A stretch of DNA of 64,000 nt from Chloroflexota bacterium. GTDB lineage: Bacteria > Chloroflexota > Anaerolineae > 4572-78 > J111. How positions within the stretch are numbered: the first letter of the stretch is position 1; each line of letters begins with the position of its first letter. The notes below the pieces were generated by a model. That model saw only the letters and a list, made by a program, of their open reading frames with translations, was not told where the DNA came from and did no database searches. Below, piece after piece: positions 40,272-62,399 of the stretch. The translations under genes were made by a program, and so were the position numbers. Where the stretch lies: the NCBI GenBank assembly GCA_016860845.1, contig BOKF01000002.1, positions 62,001-126,000 on the forward strand, written 5' to 3'.

Positions 40272-43200
40272 ATGTTCAAACGACACCAACCTTCCGCCGA
40301 GGCCATTAACATCGGTATCCTGCTGAATGGGCGCTACCGGCTGCGCGAGCAAATTGGTCAGGGTGGAGCCGGAATTGTTTATAAGGCTGAAGATGAGCAG
40401 CTCCAGCGCATTGTTGCCCTCAAAGTGCTCACCGCCGATGGGGGGATGGCCGGCGACAAGCTGGCCCGCTTCCGCAGCGAGGCGCTGTCGGTGGCCCAGC
40501 TCAACCATCCCAACATTATCACCTTGTACGATTATGCCGAACAAGAAGCCCACCCTTACCTGGTCATGGAGTACATTCCCGGCCAGGATTTGTGGAGCCT
40601 GGATAACAGTTATGCCCCCAGTCTGATGCCCTTCGAGGTATCGCTGCCAATCATTGACGGCATTTTGGCCGCCCTGGAATATTCCCACACGCACCATGTC
40701 GTCCACCGCGATCTCAAACCTGAAAATGTGATGATTACACCGGAAGGACTGGTGAAGGTGATGGACTTTGGCCTGGCCCGCATCCAGGGCCAATCCCGGC
40801 TGACCCAGGAGGGCTTGGTCGCCGGGACAGCCTCTTACCTGGCCCCGGAACTGGCCCTGGGCGAGCCGGGCGACCACCGGGCCGACCTGTACGCCCTCGG
40901 CGTGATGATGTACGAACTGCTGACCGGGCGGCTGCCCTTTTCCGGCGACGACCCTCTAAGCGTCGTCTCCCAGCACATCCACGCCCCGGTTGTGCCGCCG
41001 CAGCGCTACAATCCCAATGTTTCCGATGAGTTGCAAGCCATCATTCTGAAACTGATGGCCAAGCATGCCAGCGAGCGCTATGCCAACGCGACGGAAGTCC
41101 GCCGTGACCTGGCCCCCAGCCTGGCTTATTACCGGGGTGAGGAAATGCTCCCGGCCGCCGAGGCCGTCCCCTCGCTCGGTTTGGAGGTCAGCACCACCCA
41201 GCAGGCTCTGCTCGACCGCATTTCGCGCGGCAAAATGATCGGCCGCGAAGCCGAAATGGCCGAACTGAAGCGCCGCTGGGACCGCATCCGCCGGGGTGAG
41301 TCTGATCTGGAGCCGGTGCTGCTGATTTCGGGGGAAAGCGGCATTGGCAAAACCCGGCTGCTGCGCGAGTTACAGGTTTATGCCGGGCTGCGGGATGGCT
41401 ATGTTTTGCAGGGGACAGCCCGCGAGGAGGACATGGGTACGCCCTACACCCTCTTTGCCAACGCCCTGCGCAACTACGTCCGCGAGCAGCCGGCAGACAC
41501 GCTGCGCCGCCATGCCCCCGGCTTTGTCGCTGGCGAGGTGGTCCGCCTGGCTCCCCACCTGGCCGACAAACTGGGCTACATTCCGCCCAATCCACCCCTC
41601 AGCCCCGAAGCGGAACGCGCCCGCCTGCTGGAGCAGGTCTGCCGTTTCTTCACTCATATGGCCAACGAGCGGCCGGTTCTGCTCTTATTGGATGATCTCC
41701 ACTTTGCCGATCCCGGCAGCCTGGAACTGCTGGAAACCCTGGCCCGCAATTCGGCCGGCAGCTCGCTGCTCATTGCCGGGGCCTATCGAGATGTGGCCGT
41801 CGGCGTTTCCAGTGCGGTCAACCATCATATCGCCGTCCTGGCGTTGTCGGAGCTGGTCTGCCGCATCCCTTTGAACCGCCTGCCGCAGGAGGCGGCCCGG
41901 CAGATGTTGGAGGCGCTGCTGGGCGATCCGGTCAGCGACGAATTTGCTCACTCCATTTACGATGTAACCGAAGGCAATCCCCTGTTTGTCGAAGAAGTTA
42001 TCAAAAGCCTGGCGGTTGACGGCCAGATTATCCTGCGCGAGGGTCACTGGGAGCAGCGCGATACCGGCCGCCTCCACGTGCCGGGCAGCATCAAGTCGGT
42101 GTTGGGGGGACGGCTCAAGCGGATCAAAAAATCTACCCTGGAACTGATGCAACTGGCCGCCACGATTGGCCGCAACTTTACCCTGGAACTGCTGACGGAA
42201 GCCAGCCCTTACAGTGATGAGATCATCGAGGCGGCTTTTGAGGAAGCGTTCCTGTACCAGTTGATCGAGATGAACAAGGTGGTAGACCAACCTCGAGAGG
42301 CCAGTCCCTATGGCTTGGACGTCTATTATCAGTTTCAACATGCCTTCATTCGCGAAACGTTGTACGAGGAGCTGCGCCCGCTGCGCCGCCGCCTGCTGCA
42401 CCGCCGAGTGGCAGCGGCAATGGAAAAGCTGGCCGGCGAGAAACCCATTGAGAGTCCGGCGGTCCTGGCGCATCATTTTATGGCTGGGGCGCAGGACGAA
42501 ATGGCGGTATGCTATCTGTGGCAGGCCGGCAATATTGCCCGCCAGGTCCATGCCAATGCCGAAGCGGTCGGCTATTACAGCCAAGCCCGCCAGATTCTGG
42601 AAGATGCGGCCATAGAATTGAGCGGTGAGGCGCTGCGCCTCAACCTGATCCACCGTTTTGAGCTGTTGAGCAAAGAGCGGGCCATTCTGCACCTGATGGG
42701 CGGCCGCGAGCGCGAGCTAGAGGCCCTGGAAAATTTGCAAGAAGTGGCCGAGGCGCTGAACGATCCGACCCGCTGGGTGGAGGTGATGTCGCGGCTGGCG
42801 CTGTATCACTGGCAAGTAGGGCGGCTGAACCAGGCTGAGAAGGTCGCTCGCCAGGCTTTGGAAGTCGCGCAGAAACATAACGACCGGCGCGGCGAGCAGT
42901 ACTGCCTGGAGCAAATTGCCCGCGTTTTGTGGACGCGGCGCGACGCCGAAAGCATGAGCTTTGCCGCCCAGGCCCTCTTGATTGCCCAGGAACTGGGCGA
43001 CCGGCGGCGCGAGGGCCGCCTGACGGAGCTGGTCGGCCACATCTACACCGACACCCTGCATGACCCGGAGCGGGCGGCCATTTACTTTGAGCAGGCGCTG
43101 GCGATTTGCCGCGAAACCGGCAACCGCCTGGAGGAAGCCTGGACGCTGTGGGGTATGGGCGGCCTGGCCCTGTTTGTCAACGATTATCCCCGCGCCCTCA

Positions 43201-43952
43201 GCCTGTACGAGCAGGCCAAAGAGATTGCCGAAAGTATGGGCGCAACTTTACAGGTCGGCTGGGATTGGTACGATACCGGCAATGCCTGGTATAACCTGGG
43301 CAATTACGAGCAAGCGGCCGCAGCCTACGAGCAGGCCCAGGTGATTTTCAATACCTCTCTGCACCAGCGCGGTAAAATTTATGCCCTGATTTCGCTGGGG
43401 CTGGTCTTTATGGCGACAGACCAGTTGGATGCCGCCTCCATCTATTTGGAGCAGGCCATGCGCCAGGCCGAGGAACGCCAGGACAGCACCCTGGTTTTCC
43501 GCAGCTATGAGGCGCTGGCGGCTTACTACCAATACCTGGGCGGCGACGACAACCTGACCTACGCCATCCGCCTGAGCAACCAGGTCATCAAGCTGGCCGC
43601 CGACGGCGATCAGTTTGAGCACGAGTTATTGGGCCATTTCCTGCGCAGCGCCAGCCTGTTCCAATTAAGTGAATTTGACGACGCCCTTAAAAGCTCCAGC
43701 CTAGCTGTCGGCCAGCTTGAACGGCTGACCTACATCCATTCTCTCCAGATTTCCGCGGCTGAGATTTATTACAACCACAGCCGGATCTTGGCCGCCAGCG
43801 GCCAGGACGCCCAGGCCCGGCATTATCTCCAGAAGGCCCGCGCCGAAACCATGCGCAAGGCCAACCTCATCCCCGACGAGGGACAGCGCCAGGATTTCCT
43901 GCACAATGTCGCCATCAACCGGCAGATCTTGGGAACAAGCCGGGTGAATTGA
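40272..43952 (+). CDS. Ser/Thr protein kinase fused to AAA-type ATPase and TPR repeats
   Basis: A 1226-residue signalling protein. Residues ~15-275 are a eukaryotic-like kinase: IGQGGAGIVYKAED (glycine loop), IVALKVLTAD (lysine), VVHRDLKPENVMI (catalytic loop), MDFGLA. Residues ~315-600 are an ATPase of the predicted-ATPase/guanylate-cyclase-associated type, with Walker A ISGESGIGKTRLL and Walker B PVLLLLDDLHFADPGS. The rest (~680-1220) is TPR-like repeats (ALEVAQKHNDRRGEQYCLEQ, YEQAAAAYEQAQ). Proteins with this order are typical of Chloroflexi and Myxococcota and are thought to sense signals through the repeats. No membrane segment. The gene is preceded by a strong palindrome and followed by a GC-rich repeat. 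Confidence 0.85.
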   Translation: MFKRHQPSAEAINIGILLNGRYRLREQIGQGGAGIVYKAEDEQLQRIVALKVLTADGGMAGDKLARFRSEALSVAQLNHPNIITLYDYAEQEAHPYLVMEYIPGQDLWSLDNSYAPSLMPFEVSLPIIDGILAALEYSHTHHVVHRDLKPENVMITPEGLVKVMDFGLARIQGQSRLTQEGLVAGTASYLAPELALGEPGDHRADLYALGVMMYELLTGRLPFSGDDPLSVVSQHIHAPVVPPQRYNPNVSDELQAIILKLMAKHASERYANATEVRRDLAPSLAYYRGEEMLPAAEAVPSLGLEVSTTQQALLDRISRGKMIGREAEMAELKRRWDRIRRGESDLEPVLLISGESGIGKTRLLRELQVYAGLRDGYVLQGTAREEDMGTPYTLFANALRNYVREQPADTLRRHAPGFVAGEVVRLAPHLADKLGYIPPNPPLSPEAERARLLEQVCRFFTHMANERPVLLLLDDLHFADPGSLELLETLARNSAGSSLLIAGAYRDVAVGVSSAVNHHIAVLALSELVCRIPLNRLPQEAARQMLEALLGDPVSDEFAHSIYDVTEGNPLFVEEVIKSLAVDGQIILREGHWEQRDTGRLHVPGSIKSVLGGRLKRIKKSTLELMQLAATIGRNFTLELLTEASPYSDEIIEAAFEEAFLYQLIEMNKVVDQPREASPYGLDVYYQFQHAFIRETLYEELRPLRRRLLHRRVAAAMEKLAGEKPIESPAVLAHHFMAGAQDEMAVCYLWQAGNIARQVHANAEAVGYYSQARQILEDAAIELSGEALRLNLIHRFELLSKERAILHLMGGRERELEALENLQEVAEALNDPTRWVEVMSRLALYHWQVGRLNQAEKVARQALEVAQKHNDRRGEQYCLEQIARVLWTRRDAESMSFAAQALLIAQELGDRRREGRLTELVGHIYTDTLHDPERAAIYFEQALAICRETGNRLEEAWTLWGMGGLALFVNDYPRALSLYEQAKEIAESMGATLQVGWDWYDTGNAWYNLGNYEQAAAAYEQAQVIFNTSLHQRGKIYALISLGLVFMATDQLDAASIYLEQAMRQAEERQDSTLVFRSYEALAAYYQYLGGDDNLTYAIRLSNQVIKLAADGDQFEHELLGHFLRSASLFQLSEFDDALKSSSLAVGQLERLTYIHSLQISAAEIYYNHSRILAASGQDAQARHYLQKARAETMRKANLIPDEGQRQDFLHNVAINRQILGTSRVN

Positions 43953-47192: not shown

Positions 47193-47822
47193 CAGCAGAT
47201 CGAAGAACATGTTCATCTGCACTGCATCGTGACTGGGGGCGGGCTGCGATTGGATGGGCAGCAGTCGGTCAAGTCTAAAAGCAGCCACTATCTGCTCAAT
47301 GTGGTCGAGCTGTCGGCAGCCTATCGGGATCGGTTGTTGCACGGGATCGAGCGGCGGGTGGAGCGGCAGGAAATAGTCCTGGCCGATACAGCCGCAGAAG
47401 AGGCATTGGCCCCCTTGTTGGTCGAACTGCGGGTCAAGCAGTGGGAAGTGTTCATCAAGCCCTTTGCCACGTCGGAAGTGGTGACGGAGTACCTGAGCCG
47501 CTATGTCCGTCAGGTGGCCCTCTCCAATTACCGGCTGGAGAGTATAGACCAGGGCCAGGTGCGCTTTCGCTACTATGACAACCGGAAGCGGACCGAGGTG
47601 GGGGAGAAGGGCAAAGAGAAAGTGTTGATCGTAACGGGGGAGGAGTTTATCCGCCGTTTTTTGTTACACATTGCCCGCCCGCAATCGGCTAAACCGCAGG
47701 GCGTTGGATGGCAAAACTCAATCTGGCAAAACTATACGGATGTGGATTTGGTTGTTGTTGAAGGAGACGTAATAAATGCATATCCGATTCGTTCAAGCCG
47801 GATGCAAAAAGACCTACTATGA
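47193..47822 (+). pseudogene. Truncated IS91-family (Y2/HUH) transposase
   Basis: About 210 residues of a rolling-circle transposase remain. HVHLHCIVTGGGL contains the HUH histidines followed by the family's GGGL block, and VTEYLSRYVRQVALSNYRL has the two catalytic tyrosines (Y-x3-Y) with the family context YLxRYxxxxAxSNxRL; then VRFRYYDNRKR. The N-terminal zinc ribbon and first helical part are missing, and an in-frame TAA lies shortly upstream of 47193. The usual end ori and ter sequences were not found. It probably brought in the AT-richer gene that follows. Confidence 0.78.
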
Positions 47823-53917: not shown

Positions 53918-53946
53918 TTGTCTTCTTAAGCTAATCCTGTTATGAT
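53918..53946 (+). promoter_or_regulatory. Promoter of the STAND/acyltransferase-like/kinase cluster
   Basis: TTGTCT (53918-53923), exactly 17 bp, TATGAT (53941-53946). The transcript would start near 53953, ~60 bases before ATG 54013. Confidence 0.55.
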
Positions 53947-54012
53947 AACCTTAGTAGACATTTAACAATATTTAGAGATCATGTCTGTCTCTAGGAACAG
54001 GGGGAAGATGAC

Positions 54013-57000
54013 ATGGCCTCAACTCAGCTTGATCTTTCCACAACCACAGCGGCTGTCATTCAAGAAAATAGCGGCCAGATAGCCATCGGCCAGTATGTTG
54101 TGCAGATTGGCTCGATTCACGGCGGGGTGGTCAATGTGGCCATGCCGGAAGAGCAGGCCCACTGGCAGCCTCGCCTGGCCCCGGTGCTGCTGCGTCCGCG
54201 CCGCTTTAGCGGCCTGTTGGACCGGCAGGGAGAAACCGGGGCAGCCACAACGGCCGTCCACACGGCCCAACCCGTAGAGTTTTACGGCCCGCCCGGTTTA
54301 GGCAAAACGAGCCTGCTGCGCCACCTGGCTTACAATCTCCCCTTATCCTCCTGTAACGATGGCGTTGTTTACCTCTCCGCTCAGCAGCAGCCGCTTACGG
54401 ACCTGCTGCAATTCCTTTTTGAAGCTTTCTTCGAGAGCAATATCCCGGCCAAAGCAACCGAGGCTCAAATCCGGCACGGCTTGCAGGACAAGCAAGCCTT
54501 AATCCTGCTGGATGATGTAGACCTGGCTCGCCTGGAAGTGGAGACGGTGCTGGATGCTGCCCCTCACTGCGCCTTTATTTTTACCTCCGCCGAGCGCCGC
54601 TTATGGGGCGAAGGTCAGGTGCTGGCTTTAGCTGGCCTGCCCCTCGACGATGCCCTGGCGCTGCTGGAACGAGAAGTTGCCCGCCCGTTGAGCCAGGAGG
54701 AGCTGCCTGCAGCAAAGGAACTGTGCCAAATCCTGGCCGGTCACCCCCTCCGGCTGCTCCAGGTAGCCGCCCTGGCCCAGGAGCACGGCCACTCGCTGCT
54801 TGAGATAACGCAGCGATTGCAGCAAGCTGTTCCGGCCGAAGCGCTGACCCGCCAGCTTCTGGACCAGCTTTCTCCCCCGGAACGGCGGGTGCTGGGCACA
54901 CTGGCTCTTTTTGGCGGCGCGCCGCTCGGCCACGAACACGTTGCCGCCCTGACCGGCCTGCCCGATCCAACCCCGGTGATCGAATCTCTGTTACAGCGTA
55001 ACCTGATCCAGGCGCACAGCCCGCGCTACAGCCTCAGCGGCGACCTGGCCCAGCATTGGCCTTCTGCCTGGGATTTAACGCCTTTGGCCGAGCGTGCCCT
55101 CAATTATTTCACCCGGTGGGCCGAACAGGCCCAGTCAACCCCTGACCTTTTGCTGGAAGAAGCCGGGGCCATACGCCAGCTTCTCGCCTGGGCGGTCGAG
55201 ACCCAACGCTGGCCGGAAACGCTCCGCCTGGTGCGGGTCATCGAAGGCGCTTTCAGCTTGAGCGGGCGTTGGGCCGCCTGGGCCGAAATCCTGCAAAACG
55301 GCTTACAGGCCGCCGAGGCGCTCGGCGACCGGGCCGCCAAAGCCTGGGCCTGGCACCAACTTGGCAGCCGCGCCCTCTGCCTGGACGACAAGGTGGCCGC
55401 TCGAACTGCCCTGAGCCGGGCGCTCCGCCTGCGCGAAACATTGGGCGACTACGCCGGCGCTGACATCACCCGCCACAACTTAAATCTGCTGCTGGGATCC
55501 CCACCGCCGCCGCAATCTCCGTCCGCGCCGCCCGCCCCCAACGGAACGCCAGGCACACCCTGGCCCTTGCTTGGCCTGATTGGCTTCTCTTTGTTATTAC
55601 TGTTGGCTGTGGCGGGTTGGCTGGCCTCGACCTTGTTGGCCTCACCCACCCGTCCGGCAGCGGTTCAGAACGGCCCGCCTACGCTGACCCGCGTCTCTCA
55701 GGTTAGCTTCGTCCCCACGGCTACCTTCACCCCAATCCTCGCTGTACCTACCACCCCCCCGGCCACTTTCACCCCTACCCTGCCACTCCCAACCGACACG
55801 CCCACGCCGCCACCCACTTCCACCGCTACTGCCTCCCCCACGCTCTCGCCAACCCCCACCTTCACCGCCTCCCCCACCCCTATCCCCACCTTTACCCCGA
55901 CCGCCACCTCGACGCCGTCCTCTACTCCGACCGCTACACCCAGACCGGTGGCCCTGTTGGATCCCATGGATTTGAATTTTGGCCCCATGCGGGTGGCCGA
56001 AACCAGTCGAGCCGAAACAATCCGTTTGGCTAACACCGGCGGAGGGTGGCTAACCGTCACCAATATCTTTCTTGAAGGCAACGCGGCGAATGACTATCTG
56101 CTTGACTCCGGCAACTGCCTGGCCCGATCCAGCCTTCCGGCCAACAGCAGTTGTATAATTAATCTGCGCTTTAGACCTACTGCTACCGGGGAGCGCCGCG
56201 CCAGCCTGACCATCCTGAGCAACAGCCTTGACAGCCCAAACAGCGTCTTTCTTACTGGTTTTGGCCTCGGCGACCCGGCCGTCAATCTCAATCCTAATGC
56301 GTTGGATTGGGGAGAGCAGCCCATCGGCAGTGCTGGCGAAGCCCAAACGGTGCATGTGACCAATGTCGGCCAGGGCGATCTGACGATTAACAGCATCAAC
56401 CTGGGCGGAACCCACCTTGATGATTTTACGTTTGAAGAAGGCTGCGCCAATTTTGTGCTGCGCCCCGGCGATAGCTGCCTGATCAGCGTCCGCTTTACGC
56501 CCCGCTCGGCCGGCCCGCGTACCGCCGAACTGACCCTGATGGACAACGCGCCTGACACGCCCCAACACCTGCCCCTGCGCGGCGTTGGAGCGGTCACCCA
56601 ACCGGACCTGGTCGTTAGCGCCCTGGATTTTAATGGGCCTGCCCAGATCAACCGGAGGAGCGGCGAGATTGAAGTCCCCATTCGCCTGGCAGTTAGAAAC
56701 CAGGGCAGTGCCGAGGCCGTTATCTTTAAAGTCTCAACCGACTATACCGGTCCGAATGGGACTTTTGTGGTTGCCTTTACCGTTCCGGGTCAAAACAACA
56801 TCTGGTATCCCTATACCAACGCCCCGCTGCCCCCAGGCGGCGAGGTCGTCTTTGCCGGTGTAGTGACCTTCTCGGCCAATATGCAAGGGCAAAATGTCTC
56901 GCTCACCGGACTGACCGACAGTTGCAGCGGCGACGAGTTTATGCCACCGACCTGCCGCGTCGAAGAGAGCCGCGAAGACAATAACCTGTCTCAGCCCATC

Positions 57001-57042
57001 TCGCTGATGCTGCCTACTCCGCCGCCGCCTGTTATAGAATAA
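54013..57042 (+). CDS. Membrane STAND ATPase with extracellular HYDIN-like and CARDB-like domains
   Basis: A 1009-residue protein of unusual design. Residues ~19-42 form a short beta-rich motif, GQIAIGQYVVQIGSIHGG, shared with the kinase at 59667. A STAND-type ATPase follows: Walker A EFYGPPGLGKTSLL (about 89-102), Walker B ALILLDDVD (about 160-168), TSAERR sensor, then winged-helix and TPR-like helices (~270-500). One membrane helix (about 519-541) crosses to the outside; a long Thr/Pro linker (~560-645) precedes two HYDIN/ASPM-type Ig folds (LNFGPMRVAETSRAETIRLAN, LDWGEQPIGSAGEAQTVHV, ~650-860) and a CARDB-like fold (~865-1000). Such a layout could couple an outside signal to ATP-driven assembly inside. 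No lipidation signal. Confidence 0.75.
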   Translation: MASTQLDLSTTTAAVIQENSGQIAIGQYVVQIGSIHGGVVNVAMPEEQAHWQPRLAPVLLRPRRFSGLLDRQGETGAATTAVHTAQPVEFYGPPGLGKTSLLRHLAYNLPLSSCNDGVVYLSAQQQPLTDLLQFLFEAFFESNIPAKATEAQIRHGLQDKQALILLDDVDLARLEVETVLDAAPHCAFIFTSAERRLWGEGQVLALAGLPLDDALALLEREVARPLSQEELPAAKELCQILAGHPLRLLQVAALAQEHGHSLLEITQRLQQAVPAEALTRQLLDQLSPPERRVLGTLALFGGAPLGHEHVAALTGLPDPTPVIESLLQRNLIQAHSPRYSLSGDLAQHWPSAWDLTPLAERALNYFTRWAEQAQSTPDLLLEEAGAIRQLLAWAVETQRWPETLRLVRVIEGAFSLSGRWAAWAEILQNGLQAAEALGDRAAKAWAWHQLGSRALCLDDKVAARTALSRALRLRETLGDYAGADITRHNLNLLLGSPPPPQSPSAPPAPNGTPGTPWPLLGLIGFSLLLLLAVAGWLASTLLASPTRPAAVQNGPPTLTRVSQVSFVPTATFTPILAVPTTPPATFTPTLPLPTDTPTPPPTSTATASPTLSPTPTFTASPTPIPTFTPTATSTPSSTPTATPRPVALLDPMDLNFGPMRVAETSRAETIRLANTGGGWLTVTNIFLEGNAANDYLLDSGNCLARSSLPANSSCIINLRFRPTATGERRASLTILSNSLDSPNSVFLTGFGLGDPAVNLNPNALDWGEQPIGSAGEAQTVHVTNVGQGDLTINSINLGGTHLDDFTFEEGCANFVLRPGDSCLISVRFTPRSAGPRTAELTLMDNAPDTPQHLPLRGVGAVTQPDLVVSALDFNGPAQINRRSGEIEVPIRLAVRNQGSAEAVIFKVSTDYTGPNGTFVVAFTVPGQNNIWYPYTNAPLPPGGEVVFAGVVTFSANMQGQNVSLTGLTDSCSGDEFMPPTCRVEESREDNNLSQPISLMLPTPPPPVIE

Positions 57043-57065
57043 GCAAAGCGTAGGAAGGAAACCCT

Positions 57066-59555
57066 GTGGAAACGCGCCAATCTGACCAGAAAATTTCACC
57101 CAAAGCGGGTTATAGCGCTGGCCGATCAGGCTTGTCTGAGATCCCAGCCCAGCTTGCTCAAGCCTCCCTTAAAGCGGCCCATGATCTTAGAACTGTCGCC
57201 CAGTTATCTCAATTGTCCATTCCGGCGGTTTCCCGCCTCTCTTTGCCGGTGCTGGATGTTGTGGTGGAGCAGGTAGCCCGGCTGGCGCCGGCCGGCAACG
57301 TGCTCGGAATGATCCTGAGCGGCTTGTCTCGTCTGCCGGAACGCCGTCCGCCGCCCAAAACAATCCGACGCGATCTTAATCTGCTCTTCAAAGGGGTTGA
57401 ACAGACGCTGGACGCAGCCGTTTTTACCGCCTTTTTTGCCGGACCGGCGGCGGTGATCGGGGCTTATCAGGGGCTGCTTAAATTGGCCGGTAAAGACCCG
57501 GCGGAGGCTTTCCCGGAAGGAACCTGGCAGTTCTACGTCGAATATGCAGCGCGTGAAGATACCGCTCGCCATGCCAATGAAACACACGGCTTCGACACCT
57601 TCCTGCGCCGGCAGGGGCTTCAACTCAGCGCCGTTGACCGGGTCACTGCCCAGGTCATGGCCGCCATCTACTGCCTGCACCAGTACGATGCCCTGTTAGC
57701 CAACGAGTGGCGCGAGCGGGTCTATACCCGTCTGCTCACGGAAATCACCCAAACCCAGCCCAATGCCGCCCGCTATGCGCAGCTCTACAGCCAATGGGAA
57801 AAGCAGCGGCCCTACGGCCGGAGTCCGGCCGGCTTCACCCGCCAGGCCTATCCCGCGTTTCGCCGTGACCGTTTTGATCAATATCTGGGCGAGGCGCTGG
57901 GCGTCCTGGAAACCGACCTGCGCGATCAATGGCAGCAGGCCGTACACCAGGCCGAAGCGGAAGAGTTGCCCGCTTATCAACAGCAAATGTCCATTCTGGC
58001 TTACCTTGACCCCGGCCCTTACGGCGAAATCCGAACGCCCATTCCCTTGACCAAAGCCTGCATTGGCCTGATCCATCAGAATTGTTATTTCTTTATTCCG
58101 GCCTGTTTCCCTGGCTCCGAGCGCCCCGCCGACATTCAGGCCGTCCGGGCGATGGTCGCCTCGATCCTGGCCCAAACCGAGCCTGACCCCAAAGGCCGGC
58201 TCCCCCTGTCTTTGGCTCAAATCAAGCGGTCAGCCTGGCCCGATCTGCGCCGGAAGTTGGATCAGGCCCTCGTCCAGGAATTGGACCGGCTGCGCTTTGC
58301 GCCGATTCTGATCAACTGCGACCGGCAGTCCCGTCACGGGCTCCTGGCCGAACTGCGCCAGGCGGAACGCGGCCGGGGCGACCACGCCTTGACTTTGTTT
58401 GATACCGGCGAAACGATGATTTTTGACCAGTCCCATATCTTTTTTGATGGCGCCTGGGGCGCGGCGCTGGCCGAAATCATTACCCAGGAGGCCCTCTCCT
58501 GGGCCAATCACCTGGCCGAGATGGCCCCCAGCCCCGCGCCGGATACACCCCGGTCGCCGCAAATGCTGCGCTTTCATCTTCAGCCCGCCGATTTGGCTCT
58601 GCTCCAGCAAGCCCCGCGGGTGACCGTTGAGGTCGGGGCTGAAACAGAGGCTCTTGAATTGAAGGCGATGGTCAATTTGCGCCGGCTCTTCAAGCGGCGC
58701 AACGACCTGCTCAAGTTGACCATCAACGATCTCCTGATTCTCTACCGGGCCATCCATACCTTCACCTACCAGCCGGATTCCGAATTGACCCGCGAGTTGG
58801 AAGAATTGGCCGGCCAGCCAGCCACCCGTCCGGCGGCGCTGGCGGCGCTGGAAGCCCTCCATAGCACCGACCCGGTCAATCCAACCATCTTTATTCCGAT
58901 AGATGCCAGCCAGCGAGCGCCGCGAGACCGGCTCTACCCCATCACTTTTGAAGCGCCTTTAACCCAGTTGGACTTCCTGGGGCTGCACCGGCAGGTGCTG
59001 GCCGCCTGGGATGCCTGCCGACAGGCTAACGTTACCTCCGGCCCGATCTATGATGAGTTTGACCGGCTTCGGCGGGAATATCTGGCGATGCTGGCCGGTT
59101 TTGGCGCAATTTTAGGCCAGGCCAAGCAGTTTGGTCTGGCCGGGCAAAGTTTGAGCACCGGGGCGATTAAACTGCTGGCTCACTTTCCTGCCCCGCTACA
59201 GCAGATGTTAGAAAGGGTTCCAGGGAGTTTTGATCTCCTGAGTGATCTACTCAAGGGCCGGGAAGTATTCTCTAACGTCGGGGCGGTGGTCCCGAGCAGT
59301 ACCCTCACCCGCTTTATTTCGGCCAAAGACGACAACGACAAAAAAAGCCTGGTCTGGGGGGTGATCAGCGACGCCCAGGGCGTCATGCGGCTCAGCCTGC
59401 GCGATTTCCGGCCTCACGTGGCCCTGCTGGCAGCCTGCGGGCACAAAGACCTAGCCAGCCGCCTGGCTCAACATTATGTAGATACCTATGCGCAAGGATT
59501 AAATCAATTCATTCGCGAATTACGCCAGATTACCCAGGCGAGCCGTGAAAATTAA
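57066..59555 (+). CDS. Large protein with features of the HxxxDG acyltransferase superfamily
   Basis: An 829-residue soluble protein, GTG start with AGGAA upstream, 23 bases after the STAND gene. No close family is recognised, but several landmarks of CoA-dependent acyltransferases (carnitine acyltransferase, condensation and wax-synthase-like domains) occur in the right order: MIFDQSHIFFDGAWGAALAE with H457-x3-D461-G462, VNLRRLFKRRN, then LTINDLLILYRAI (N554-D555) and VFSNVGAVVPSS (S736-N737). The N-terminal ~300 residues are helical; residues ~1-30 are low-complexity. If correct, the enzyme moves an acyl group to an unknown acceptor. This assignment is inference and could be wrong. Confidence 0.5.
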   Translation: METRQSDQKISPKAGYSAGRSGLSEIPAQLAQASLKAAHDLRTVAQLSQLSIPAVSRLSLPVLDVVVEQVARLAPAGNVLGMILSGLSRLPERRPPPKTIRRDLNLLFKGVEQTLDAAVFTAFFAGPAAVIGAYQGLLKLAGKDPAEAFPEGTWQFYVEYAAREDTARHANETHGFDTFLRRQGLQLSAVDRVTAQVMAAIYCLHQYDALLANEWRERVYTRLLTEITQTQPNAARYAQLYSQWEKQRPYGRSPAGFTRQAYPAFRRDRFDQYLGEALGVLETDLRDQWQQAVHQAEAEELPAYQQQMSILAYLDPGPYGEIRTPIPLTKACIGLIHQNCYFFIPACFPGSERPADIQAVRAMVASILAQTEPDPKGRLPLSLAQIKRSAWPDLRRKLDQALVQELDRLRFAPILINCDRQSRHGLLAELRQAERGRGDHALTLFDTGETMIFDQSHIFFDGAWGAALAEIITQEALSWANHLAEMAPSPAPDTPRSPQMLRFHLQPADLALLQQAPRVTVEVGAETEALELKAMVNLRRLFKRRNDLLKLTINDLLILYRAIHTFTYQPDSELTRELEELAGQPATRPAALAALEALHSTDPVNPTIFIPIDASQRAPRDRLYPITFEAPLTQLDFLGLHRQVLAAWDACRQANVTSGPIYDEFDRLRREYLAMLAGFGAILGQAKQFGLAGQSLSTGAIKLLAHFPAPLQQMLERVPGSFDLLSDLLKGREVFSNVGAVVPSSTLTRFISAKDDNDKKSLVWGVISDAQGVMRLSLRDFRPHVALLAACGHKDLASRLAQHYVDTYAQGLNQFIRELRQITQASREN

Positions 59556-59586
59556 CAGAAGCGATTATCGGGAATAACGGGTTTTT

Positions 59587-59635
59587 GACAAGATTAACAG
59601 GATTAAAAGAAATTTTCATCTTGTAAATCCTGTCT
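59587..59635. repeat. ACAAGATTAACAGGATT inverted repeat
   Basis: GACAAGATTAACAGGATT faces ATCTTGTAAATCCTGTC, members of the family at 38579-38632. It lies between the 829-residue gene and the kinase gene and may act as a weak end or a stabilising hairpin within one message. Confidence 0.6.
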
Positions 59636-59666
59636 GGTTTTTATTTCTGATAAACTCTGGAGTGTT

Positions 59667-62399
59667 ATGACGGACCAAGCAGTAACGGATAATTTATTAT
59701 TCCAACAATTAGATGAATATCGCCTGGAAGCTTTGCTGGGGCGAGGGGGAATGGCCCGGGTCTATCGCGGCTATGATGTGCGTCTCAAACGCTGGGCAGC
59801 GGTCAAAGTGATTGACGCGCCCTTCCGCGCCGACCCCGATTATATGGCCCGCTTTGAGCGCGAAGCCCAGGCAATTGCCCAATTGAAGCATCCGCACATC
59901 GTCGGGGTGTATCGCTACGGCGAGGCTCATGAGCTGCTTTACATCGCTATGGAGTATATTGAAGGCGCGAGTTTAGAAGCTGTGCTGGCCTCTTACCAGC
60001 AGGATCATCAGCTTATGTCTCCAGCCGAAGCCAGCCAGATCATCCGGCCCATTTGCCTGGCCCTAGATTATGCCCACAGCCAGGGAGTTATCCATCGCGA
60101 TGTCAAACCTTCGAATATTATGCTTAACGCACAGGGCCAGCCCATTTTGACCGATTTCGGCCTGGCTCTGCTCGACTACCAGACCCGTGGGGAGATTTTT
60201 GGCACGCCGCACTATATCGCCCCGGAGCAGGTCATGTCATCCGCAGGCGCGGTGCCGCAAAGCGACCTCTACAGCCTGGGCGTAGTCTTGTACGAGATTT
60301 TCACCGGCAGCCTGCCCTTTGAGGCAGCTCACCCTTATGACGTAGCGATGCTTCACCTGACCGAGCCGCCGCCGCCGCCGCGCCAGCTCAAACCAGACCT
60401 CAGCCCGGGCCTGGAAGCGGTCATTCTCAAGGCATTAGCCAAAGAACCGGCCGGCCGTTACCCCAACGGCGCAGCCCTGGCCAATGCCCTCGATCAGGCT
60501 TTGGCCGTCAAGACCGGGGAGGTTTTGAAATCCTCCCAGACCTCAGAAGAACTGAAAGTATCCCCGGAGCAAGCCATTATGAAAGTTGAACCTCAAGTTA
60601 AAAGGAACGCCGAGGCTGTTCAGCCGGCGTCCGGCGACGCCAGTCCGCAGCCGTTCCAACCGGCTGAACAGGACCCGTCAGCCCAGCCTCAGGTAAAAAA
60701 GGGGCAGGTCATCACCACCCGCTATATTCTCAAGAACATCCGCGCTTTACTAACCGAATTGACGGTCGCTCTGACTGAGGAAGAGCTGCGCCAGATTTAT
60801 TTTGATCTGCCGGAATTCAAACCGGTCCATCACCAACTGGCTCGCAGCCAGGGTAAGGTCGAAATTATTGACCGCCTCCTCGAATATGCCGAGCAAACCT
60901 TGCAGCTTGACGATCTCCTGGCGCTGGCCAGGGAGAACAACCGCACCGTCTATGAAAAACATCAGCCCTATTACGAAGTTATCACGGCGGCCCGGCGGGA
61001 CCTGGTGGGGCGCGATCTGGGCAAATACCGGCTGGTTAAGCGGCTGGGCCAGGGAGGCATGGCCGATGTTTACAAGGCGTACCAAGCCAGTCTGGCTCGC
61101 TATGTGGCCATTAAAGTCATCCACAGCCATCTGGCCGAAGATGAAGAGTTCATCGAGCGCTTTGAGAGCGAGGCCATGGCCGTGGCCAGCCTCCACCATC
61201 CCAACATTGTGCAAGTCTTTGATTTTGCCCGTGAAGATGACCTGTATTACATGGTCATGGAACTTGTGGACGGTCCGACGCTGGAGGTGGAGCTAAAAAC
61301 CTATAAGGAGCGGCAGGCGCTTATGCCCCTGGCCGAAACAGCGGCCATTTTTCAAGCCCTGGCCAGCGCGATAGATTATGCCCATGGGCGGGAGGTCATT
61401 CACCGGGATTTGAAGCCGAGCAACATCATGTTCACCCCCCGGCGGCGGGTGGTGTTGACCGATTTTGGCATTGCCCGGATTATGAGCAGGCCCAGCCTGA
61501 CCAGCAAGAATGCCGTCATCGGCACGCCGGCCTATATGTCGCCGGAGCAGGCCCAGGGGGAAACAATAGACAAGCGCAGCGATATTTACTCCCTGGGCGT
61601 GATTCTGTACGAGCTGGCGACCGGGCAGGTGCCCTTTGAGGGGGATCATCCGATTGCAATTGTGCTGAAGTTGGTCAATGAGTCGTGGCCGCTGCCGACC
61701 AGCGTCAATCCTGGCCTGCCCCAAGCCGTAGAGCAAGTTATCCTCAAGGCGATGAGCAAAGCTCCGGCCGGCCGCTACCAGACCGCCGCAGAGATGGCTG
61801 AGGCGCTGCAGCAGGCCCTGGTCGCGCCGGAAGCTCCGCTTCAGGAGGAACGTTCGCCGTTAAACATTCAACGGGCCGCGCCCGAGATAGAGGTCAAACT
61901 GCCTGCCCCTTACCCGGCCGAGAAAGGGTGGCTGAACGAACTGGCGAAGACCGCGGGCGGTTTGGTGACCCTGTCTAATGCCGGTCAGTTAGCCCTGGGC
62001 GGGCAGAACGTGGTCCAAATTGGGACGATTAGCGGGGGGCAGGTCTCGCTGGGCGTGGGCAGCCGGCCGCCCAGCGAGCCAACACGTCCGCAGATAGAGA
62101 ACTACCAGGCCGTGATACACGAACAACTTCAACAATTGAAAACAAAAGTGGCTGCCGAAGCGCCCGCCGACAAGAAAAGCGCCGCCCTGGAACGTCTGGA
62201 CGAATTGAGCGAAGCCCTGACCGCCACCCCGCCCGACCTGGACACCCTGGCCTATGTCAAAAGCTGGTTCGGCAAGAATATCCCTGCTCTGACCGAGGCC
62301 GTGACCGCGATAATGATTCATCCCTCGGTAGGGCAATTGATGGCTGCGGCCGGGGAGCCGGTGGCGGGAGAGTACCTGCGGCGGTTTGGGCAGGGGTAA
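59667..62399 (+). CDS. Double Ser/Thr kinase with a central helical adaptor-like domain
   Basis: A 910-residue protein with two complete eukaryotic-like kinase domains. The first (~18-275) has LLGRGGMARVYRGYD, VIHRDVKPSNIM and DFGLA; the second (~449-715) has RLGQGGMADVYKAY, VIHRDLKPSNIMF and DFGIA with AYMSPEQAQGE. Between them (~348-430) is an all-helical segment (IRALLTELTVALTEEELRQI, IIDRLLEYAEQTLQLDDLLA) that resembles effector-associated death-like domains of bacterial conflict systems. Residues ~770-796 repeat the beta motif of the STAND protein (GQLALGGQNVVQIGTISGG). A coiled coil and a C-terminal block (IMIHPSVGQLMAAAGE, ending in RRFGQG) follow. No membrane helix. GGAG lies before the ATG. 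Confidence 0.85.
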   Translation: MTDQAVTDNLLFQQLDEYRLEALLGRGGMARVYRGYDVRLKRWAAVKVIDAPFRADPDYMARFEREAQAIAQLKHPHIVGVYRYGEAHELLYIAMEYIEGASLEAVLASYQQDHQLMSPAEASQIIRPICLALDYAHSQGVIHRDVKPSNIMLNAQGQPILTDFGLALLDYQTRGEIFGTPHYIAPEQVMSSAGAVPQSDLYSLGVVLYEIFTGSLPFEAAHPYDVAMLHLTEPPPPPRQLKPDLSPGLEAVILKALAKEPAGRYPNGAALANALDQALAVKTGEVLKSSQTSEELKVSPEQAIMKVEPQVKRNAEAVQPASGDASPQPFQPAEQDPSAQPQVKKGQVITTRYILKNIRALLTELTVALTEEELRQIYFDLPEFKPVHHQLARSQGKVEIIDRLLEYAEQTLQLDDLLALARENNRTVYEKHQPYYEVITAARRDLVGRDLGKYRLVKRLGQGGMADVYKAYQASLARYVAIKVIHSHLAEDEEFIERFESEAMAVASLHHPNIVQVFDFAREDDLYYMVMELVDGPTLEVELKTYKERQALMPLAETAAIFQALASAIDYAHGREVIHRDLKPSNIMFTPRRRVVLTDFGIARIMSRPSLTSKNAVIGTPAYMSPEQAQGETIDKRSDIYSLGVILYELATGQVPFEGDHPIAIVLKLVNESWPLPTSVNPGLPQAVEQVILKAMSKAPAGRYQTAAEMAEALQQALVAPEAPLQEERSPLNIQRAAPEIEVKLPAPYPAEKGWLNELAKTAGGLVTLSNAGQLALGGQNVVQIGTISGGQVSLGVGSRPPSEPTRPQIENYQAVIHEQLQQLKTKVAAEAPADKKSAALERLDELSEALTATPPDLDTLAYVKSWFGKNIPALTEAVTAIMIHPSVGQLMAAAGEPVAGEYLRRFGQG

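Follow-up and report, generated by a model that had tools for sequence, protein, structure and literature searches.

Layout of the locus

We analysed a stretch of 64,000 nucleotides (the window) of Chloroflexota bacterium contig BOKF01000002.1 (assembly GCA_016860845.1; positions 62,001-126,000, forward strand), in which three large genes on the same strand, here called A, B and C, seem to combine two units of older origin: a kinase gene coupled to an acyltransferase-like protein, and a membrane STAND ATPase with its adaptor. An earlier note on this DNA had described the genes as a possible three-gene system behind a single promoter. The open reading frames (ORFs) were confirmed, as were the spacings of 23 bases between A and B and 111 bases between B and C. 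The features are as follows.

53918-53946, + strand: candidate sigma-70-like promoter, TTGTCT-17-TATGAT with TG preceding the second hexamer, from a consensus scan only
54013-57042, + strand: gene A, ORF of 1009 amino acids, ATG start; order of parts: motif, NB-ARC-STAND, transmembrane segment, T/P-rich linker, HYDIN/ASH immunoglobulin-like (Ig-like) domains
54070-54144, + strand: beta motif of A, residues 20-44, SGQIAIGQYVVQIGSIHGGVVNVAM
54271-54798, + strand: NB-ARC ATPase domain of A, the Pfam stretch, residues 87-262
55552-55617, + strand: predicted transmembrane segment of A, about residues 514-535, from hydropathy
57066-59555, + strand: gene B, ORF of 829 amino acids, GTG start; by predicted fold, HxxxDG and gene linkage a carnitine/choline-acyltransferase-fold protein of a kinase-linked family
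58434-58451, + strand: HIFFDG of B, residues 457-462
59667-62399, + strand: gene C, ORF of 910 amino acids, ATG start; order of parts: kinase 1, EAD7, kinase 2, beta motif, six-helix partner domain
60738-60941, + strand: EAD7 adaptor of C, about residues 358-425
61968-62060, + strand: beta motif of C, about residues 768-798
62079-62390, + strand: partner (adaptor) domain of C, predicted to form six helices; occurs as well as a small standalone protein and at the ends of CHAT proteases

The proposed promoter site is present, 67 bases upstream of A and with 9 of 12 consensus matches. However, 11 comparable sites crowd this 11-kb region (both strands; shuffled sequences give 3.3, standard deviation 1.8), so that the candidate alone is weak evidence and no proof.

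A membrane STAND and a double kinase share a beta motif

The NB-ARC domain of A scored 35.2 bits against a Pfam cut-off of 23.5, retains an intact Walker A sequence (GPPGLGKT at residue 92) and was placed among the STAND/NB-ARC ATPases by a membership test. Matches to HYDIN, ASH and choice-of-anchor-D models cover two stretches of the protein. Together with the hydrophobic segment they fit most of the earlier description of A as a STAND ATPase joined to extracellular HYDIN/CARDB-like folds; CARDB gave no Pfam match at E ≤ 1 in the window's own A, and scores under the cut-off in its relatives P0158 and P0161. The HYDIN/Ig-like region is presumed to be an outside sensor. A second motif-bearing membrane STAND, which might feed the same kinase, is encoded in the genome (G001) of locus L001 at L104:9519-12779.

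When whole A was aligned with whole C, the best local alignment was the beta motif that had been proposed as common to both. Its score of 71 was reached by none of 200 whole-protein shuffles and by none of 2000 regional shuffles. All 23 proteins found with the motif region of A as query contain the motif, and a profile built from A and C themselves found three places in the whole genome G001 and one in G002, every one an A-type STAND or C; any match at all was seen in 9 of 298 genomes of the class. By eye, the VQIG core resembles the RHIM core of RIPK1/RIPK3. In the AlphaFold model the motif of C is disordered: over the first 32 residues of the C tail the predicted local distance difference test (pLDDT) stays below 50.

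The correspondence between neighbours was assessed in a matrix of 14 loci with adjacent receptor and partner, excluding L001, which nearly duplicates the window, as well as L145-L147, L149, L150, L153 and L158, for which the two sides were not both available. Own-pair similarity averaged 70.4 vs 44.9 for mismatched pairs, a mean reached by 0 of 20000 free permutations and by 19 of 20000 permutations within classes. Three of the proteins matched in the 9 genomes (L110, L111 and L112) are not A-type, and their membrane segment lies around residues 130-150: the one at L112:8390-10129 is ordered EAD7, VQIG motif, transmembrane segment, TPR (EAD7 and TPR by Pfam), and those of L110 and L111 are similar in layout, with a putative EAD7.

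Gene B represents a kinase-linked family

Gene B yielded no match at E ≤ 1 in Pfam, NCBIfam or PADLOC, nor any at E ≤ 10 among PDB sequences. PF00755 does not recognise it (Pfam, E ≤ 1), and this model was found in 0 of 301 Chloroflexota genomes, the control genomes being silent too. The predicted structure (mean pLDDT 66, with residues 1-166 below 50) has a two-lobed coenzyme A (CoA)-acyltransferase fold over most of the protein and was assigned to the carnitine/choline acyltransferase superfamily in a fold test; identity to carnitine/choline acyltransferases is 9-12% among the structural matches listed. The active-site motif of those enzymes is HxxxD/E, and in HIFFDG of B residues H457, F459, F460, D461 and G462 are invariant in 41 aligned rows. 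The modelled fold and the invariant HxxxDG support an acyltransferase-like B, in agreement with the initial guess of a remote acyltransferase.

A search with B found 148 places, of which 80 were kept and studied. A same-strand Ser/Thr kinase gene, starting between -400 and +1000, lies downstream of B in 69 of 78 testable loci, those with enough sequence on that side; the gap has a median of -4, with a 4-base overlap at 24 loci, and the upstream control gave 1 of 70. Membership of the middle gene in an unrelated housekeeping operon, which would have counted against the original proposal, was not observed. At E ≤ 1e-20, 56 genomes in the class sample of 396 encode a B-type protein, and among divergent relatives the kinase link is kept at five of eight fetched places. 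A divergent relative of 883 amino acids, in the L001 genome (L160:6239-8890), stands directly 5' of a transmembrane kinase with PD40 repeats. The pair is also present in cultured Herpetosiphon aurantiacus DSM 785 (L054), where it is open to genetic testing.

Outside the clade that contains A, 55 of 67 kinase-bearing rows have a transmembrane segment by hydropathy (threshold 1.7). The other 12 comprise four truncated by contig ends, six with a hydrophobic stretch of 1.34-1.69 outside the kinase domain that was judged to be a membrane segment, and two (L039 and L070) that were not placed with either group. Seven family kinases were scanned, and beyond the kinase domain three carry an FGE-sulfatase domain, one has PD40 repeats and three have no recognised domain. 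Gene order at these loci reveals a family of acyltransferase-fold proteins that is linked to Ser/Thr kinases across the sampled Chloroflexota, and its widespread unit is B plus kinase, without a STAND.

The kinase of the window

As the earlier note had it, C is a double Ser/Thr kinase with a helical adaptor-like segment: Pfam recognises two protein kinase domains, and the segment between them is EAD7-like. The Pfam score of this segment, 21.5 bits, is under the cut-off of 32; hhalign gave 99.7% (E 3e-26) against EAD7s of the related genomes G001 and G002, and a membership test placed it in EAD7. The same segment is present in C of L001, L002 and L144. No EAD7 match was found in A, the adjoining core NTPase. 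The number of EAD7 places, 22 in the L001 genome and 16 in the L002 genome, suggests that other EAD7 proteins might reach C. One separate EAD7 protein of 163 amino acids (L105:2320-2811) is encoded about 6 kb from the L001 operon, beside an ORF of 908 amino acids with many hydrophobic segments.

Against the double receptor kinases of the family, kinase 1 of C scored a mean of 361 bits with their second kinase and 270 with their first, single kinases giving 281. Kinase 2 scored 207 to 216 bits against all family classes, none being favoured, and since it has no special likeness to any of them it looks new. On these scores C differs from the usual double kinase of the family, its second domain having no special likeness to either of theirs. 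No transmembrane segment is predicted in C, whose highest hydropathy value (1.45) falls within the second kinase domain. The protein also matches PADLOC kinase models, for example PD-T4-6 (608 bits), through its kinase domains; these matches are not counted as evidence of defence.

The six-helix domain and the STAND-adaptor module

The partner domain of C was modelled as six helices with pLDDT mostly above 90. It has no PDB match at E ≤ 1e-3 by Foldseek, and no Pfam model scored above cut-off in two standalone proteins scanned. The end of C matches small standalone proteins of L106 and L107 (80.5 and 77.3 bits), whose genes follow those of A-type STANDs at 17 and 22 bases.

In a sample of 396 class genomes the domain turned up at 34 places in 33 genomes, and the 21 stronger places were examined. 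Three are the kinases of A-B-C loci (G001, G002, G321). Five are standalone proteins beside a complete STAND with a predicted membrane segment (G065, G171, G014, G301 and G159, the last with gene order reversed), and two lie beside contig-cut ORFs: that of G129 begins T/P-rich, like the linker of A, and G056 is less clear, its genome holding an A-type STAND cut at the end of another contig. Four more standalone proteins (G312, G122, G141, G159) adjoin related proteins of 458 to 546 amino acids, with TPR by Pfam in both of those scanned (one below cut-off) and a membrane segment in three. At five places (G053, G018, G361, G121, G391) the domain forms the C-terminal end of a CHAT protein, three of which adjoin the same TPR-type family. 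One place is at a contig end (G148) and one (G231) was left unclassed. One adaptor domain would serve kinases and CHAT proteases alike. At L152, L155 and L159 a CHAT protein ending in this domain stands beside a transmembrane TPR-type protein with a related N-terminal motif, apparently a separate two-gene system.

Distribution of the triple and its apparent origin

The A-B-C triple recurs at L001, L002 and L144, so homologues of the three genes are indeed neighbours elsewhere. Among the 80 B loci a motif-bearing STAND adjoins B at L001 and L002 only, L144 having been added from the genome sample. The triple first proposed holds for these loci, whereas the widespread unit is B plus kinase, and A belongs to a separate STAND-plus-adaptor module that meets that unit in one clade among the loci examined.

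In a quick, midpoint-rooted tree, a branch with support 100 separates B of the four A-bearing loci from the rest, and the group is drawn among loci whose kinases are transmembrane. By hydropathy no transmembrane segment is found in the kinases of the window, L001, L002 and L144, and in the window's clade kinase C ends in a fused partner domain. Both forms are present in genome G002, a STAND-linked triple (L002) and B followed by transmembrane kinases (L007).

The triple looks as if two older units had merged. One, seen by comparison, is a Ser/Thr kinase gene, usually for a transmembrane receptor kinase, coupled to B; the other, likewise seen by comparison, is a membrane STAND with an N-terminal beta motif beside an adaptor made up of beta motif and six-helix domain. 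The simplest account is that a B-linked kinase of the receptor family shed its sensor and became linked, via the STAND adaptor, to a membrane STAND encoded upstream. On the tree, which is rooted only by midpoint, the membrane segment would have been lost. In living relatives one can see how control of a receptor-type kinase may shift to an NLR-type protein through domain swapping.

Comparison with known systems

An NLR-type protein with a short N-terminal beta motif, encoded beside an effector gene with a related motif, has been described before (PMC7889193, PMC12881547). The related motifs of such a BASS signalosome, on the NLR N-terminus and on the neighbouring effector, are found in A and C, and the layout of motif on receptor and motif on effector is that of amyloid NLR signalosomes such as bacterial NLR-Bell and fungal HELLP with its PP-NB-ARC-TPR receptor. 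By eye, the VQIG core resembles VQVG of the RHIM-like BASS3 peptide (PMC8086366); glutamine-to-proline variants have served as controls for BASS3 (PMC9815663). In contrast, effectors named for BASS systems include Bell, CHAT and TIR (PMC7889193, PMC12881547) and here there is a double kinase; receptor A is transmembrane with an ectodomain, an additional six-helix domain and an acyltransferase-like gene are present, and amyloid is putative. The animal RHIM kinases RIPK1/RIPK3 likewise combine a kinase with a short motif, in their case one through which the kinase assembles (PMC12881547, PMC7889193).

Small helical adaptors on effectors and NTPases, with Ser/Thr/Tyr kinases among the effectors, are described for EAD-linked conflict systems (Kaur et al. 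2020, PMC7159879; 2021, PMC8195603). The likeness to these conflict systems is EAD7 itself in C, the difference being the transmembrane STAND core. The word 'carnitine' is absent from the main text of PMC8195603, as is any word beginning 'acyltransferase' from PMC7159879. B shares with carnitine/choline acyltransferases the two-lobed fold, carries an HxxxD that may correspond to their active-site motif, and differs from them in its low identity, in escaping PF00755 and in its usual link to a kinase gene. The proposed wiring follows the logic of NLR signalosomes that use related motifs, and of effector-associated domains (PMC7889193, PMC8086366, PMC7159879, PMC8195603). The combination had been suggested as undescribed, and the listings and passages of the literature searched gave no description of it.

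Proposed mechanism and alternatives

Our reading of the whole, to which we give slightly more credence than doubt, is a two-unit operon in which STAND A controls kinase C and C acts on B. A would be held in a closed state, from which its extracytoplasmic Ig-like region, or an agent acting on that region, would release it to cluster in an ATP-dependent manner. The clustered N-terminal motifs would then engage C, like with like, through its related motif and its partner domain; crowding of C would allow trans-phosphorylation and so activate both kinase domains, and C would phosphorylate or otherwise regulate B, whose putative acyl transfer would be the output. EAD7 may let other EAD7 proteins reach C too. 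The contact between A and C, activation, amyloid formation, enzyme activity, output and role (defence or envelope response) are what we infer from this arrangement. The role is likely a programmed response to envelope or surface insult, toward which we lean because the adaptor is also used by CHAT proteases; antiviral defence is one possibility. A bolder version, decidedly speculative and probably wrong, would see here a bacterial counterpart of the necrosome: an outside-sensing transmembrane NLR nucleating a double kinase through a RHIM-like motif, with an adaptor that elsewhere serves CHAT proteases fused to a kinase of the B-paired receptor family and the signal running from NLR clustering through kinase to acyl transfer.

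Several observations weigh against the main reading. A kinase is missing from the stated span at nine of the 78 testable B loci (L067 has two farther downstream), and three of the eight divergent relatives have no adjoining kinase. The sidedness of the A ectodomain depends on a single hydropathy peak, and the STAND of L104 in G001 has no partner/adaptor domain within 20 kb around it. Motif matching across pairs is clear by class and weak one-to-one, and common descent confounds it. Standalone pairs share mostly the first part of the motif, VQIG being missing on the partner side in seven of eight rows (L151 has it). The motif of C in L002 is largely decayed (own-pair score 45), so that the profile misses it in that genome, and only 4 of the 14 rows put the own pair at the top. 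These last two points would suit an operon in which A, B and C are merely cotranscribed, A does not control C and the motif is a common linker or oligomerisation stretch, as would its shortness and its disorder in the AlphaFold model. We think this very unlikely to be the explanation: the profile places in G001 and G002 are confined to A-type STANDs or C, few class genomes have any match, and the partner domain accompanies STANDs independently.

The same wiring might instead answer an ordinary envelope or nutrient signal, B acylating a cell-surface or storage metabolite with no role in conflict. The mostly housekeeping-like neighbours (see below) would fit, as would the B-kinase pair in many lineages without a STAND and the varied regions outside the kinase domain of family kinases, as expected of varied sensors. 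However, an adaptor common to CHAT proteases is unusual for pure housekeeping, and EAD7 has been described in conflict systems (PMC7159879, PMC8195603); we rate this explanation as rather unlikely. A six-helix domain that damages membranes like Bell or HeLo, the kinases only regulating it, seems extremely improbable. The resemblance is that of a helical domain beside a RHIM-like motif, adjoining an NLR-type gene, as in Bell (PMC7889193), whereas the motif precedes the domain in every standalone row and is last in Bell (PMC7889193), and a domain that ends CHAT proteases fits an adaptor better. The Foldseek result for this domain counts neither for nor against such a pore-former.

Genomic neighbourhood

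Near the operon lie genes for a class-III aminotransferase, which we take to be hemL, ALAD (hemB), a universal stress protein and a Na/H exchanger. Among ten neighbouring ORFs PADLOC returned only generic kinase models, on one of them (40272-43952), and one weak permease-type match. The surroundings look mostly housekeeping-like, and nothing near the operon resembles a defence island. The ORF at 40272-43952 encodes a protein of 1226 amino acids in which a Ser/Thr kinase is combined with an AAA_16 ATPase and TPR repeats, and an upstream ORF (47229-47822) has a putative transposase match (Y2_Tnp).
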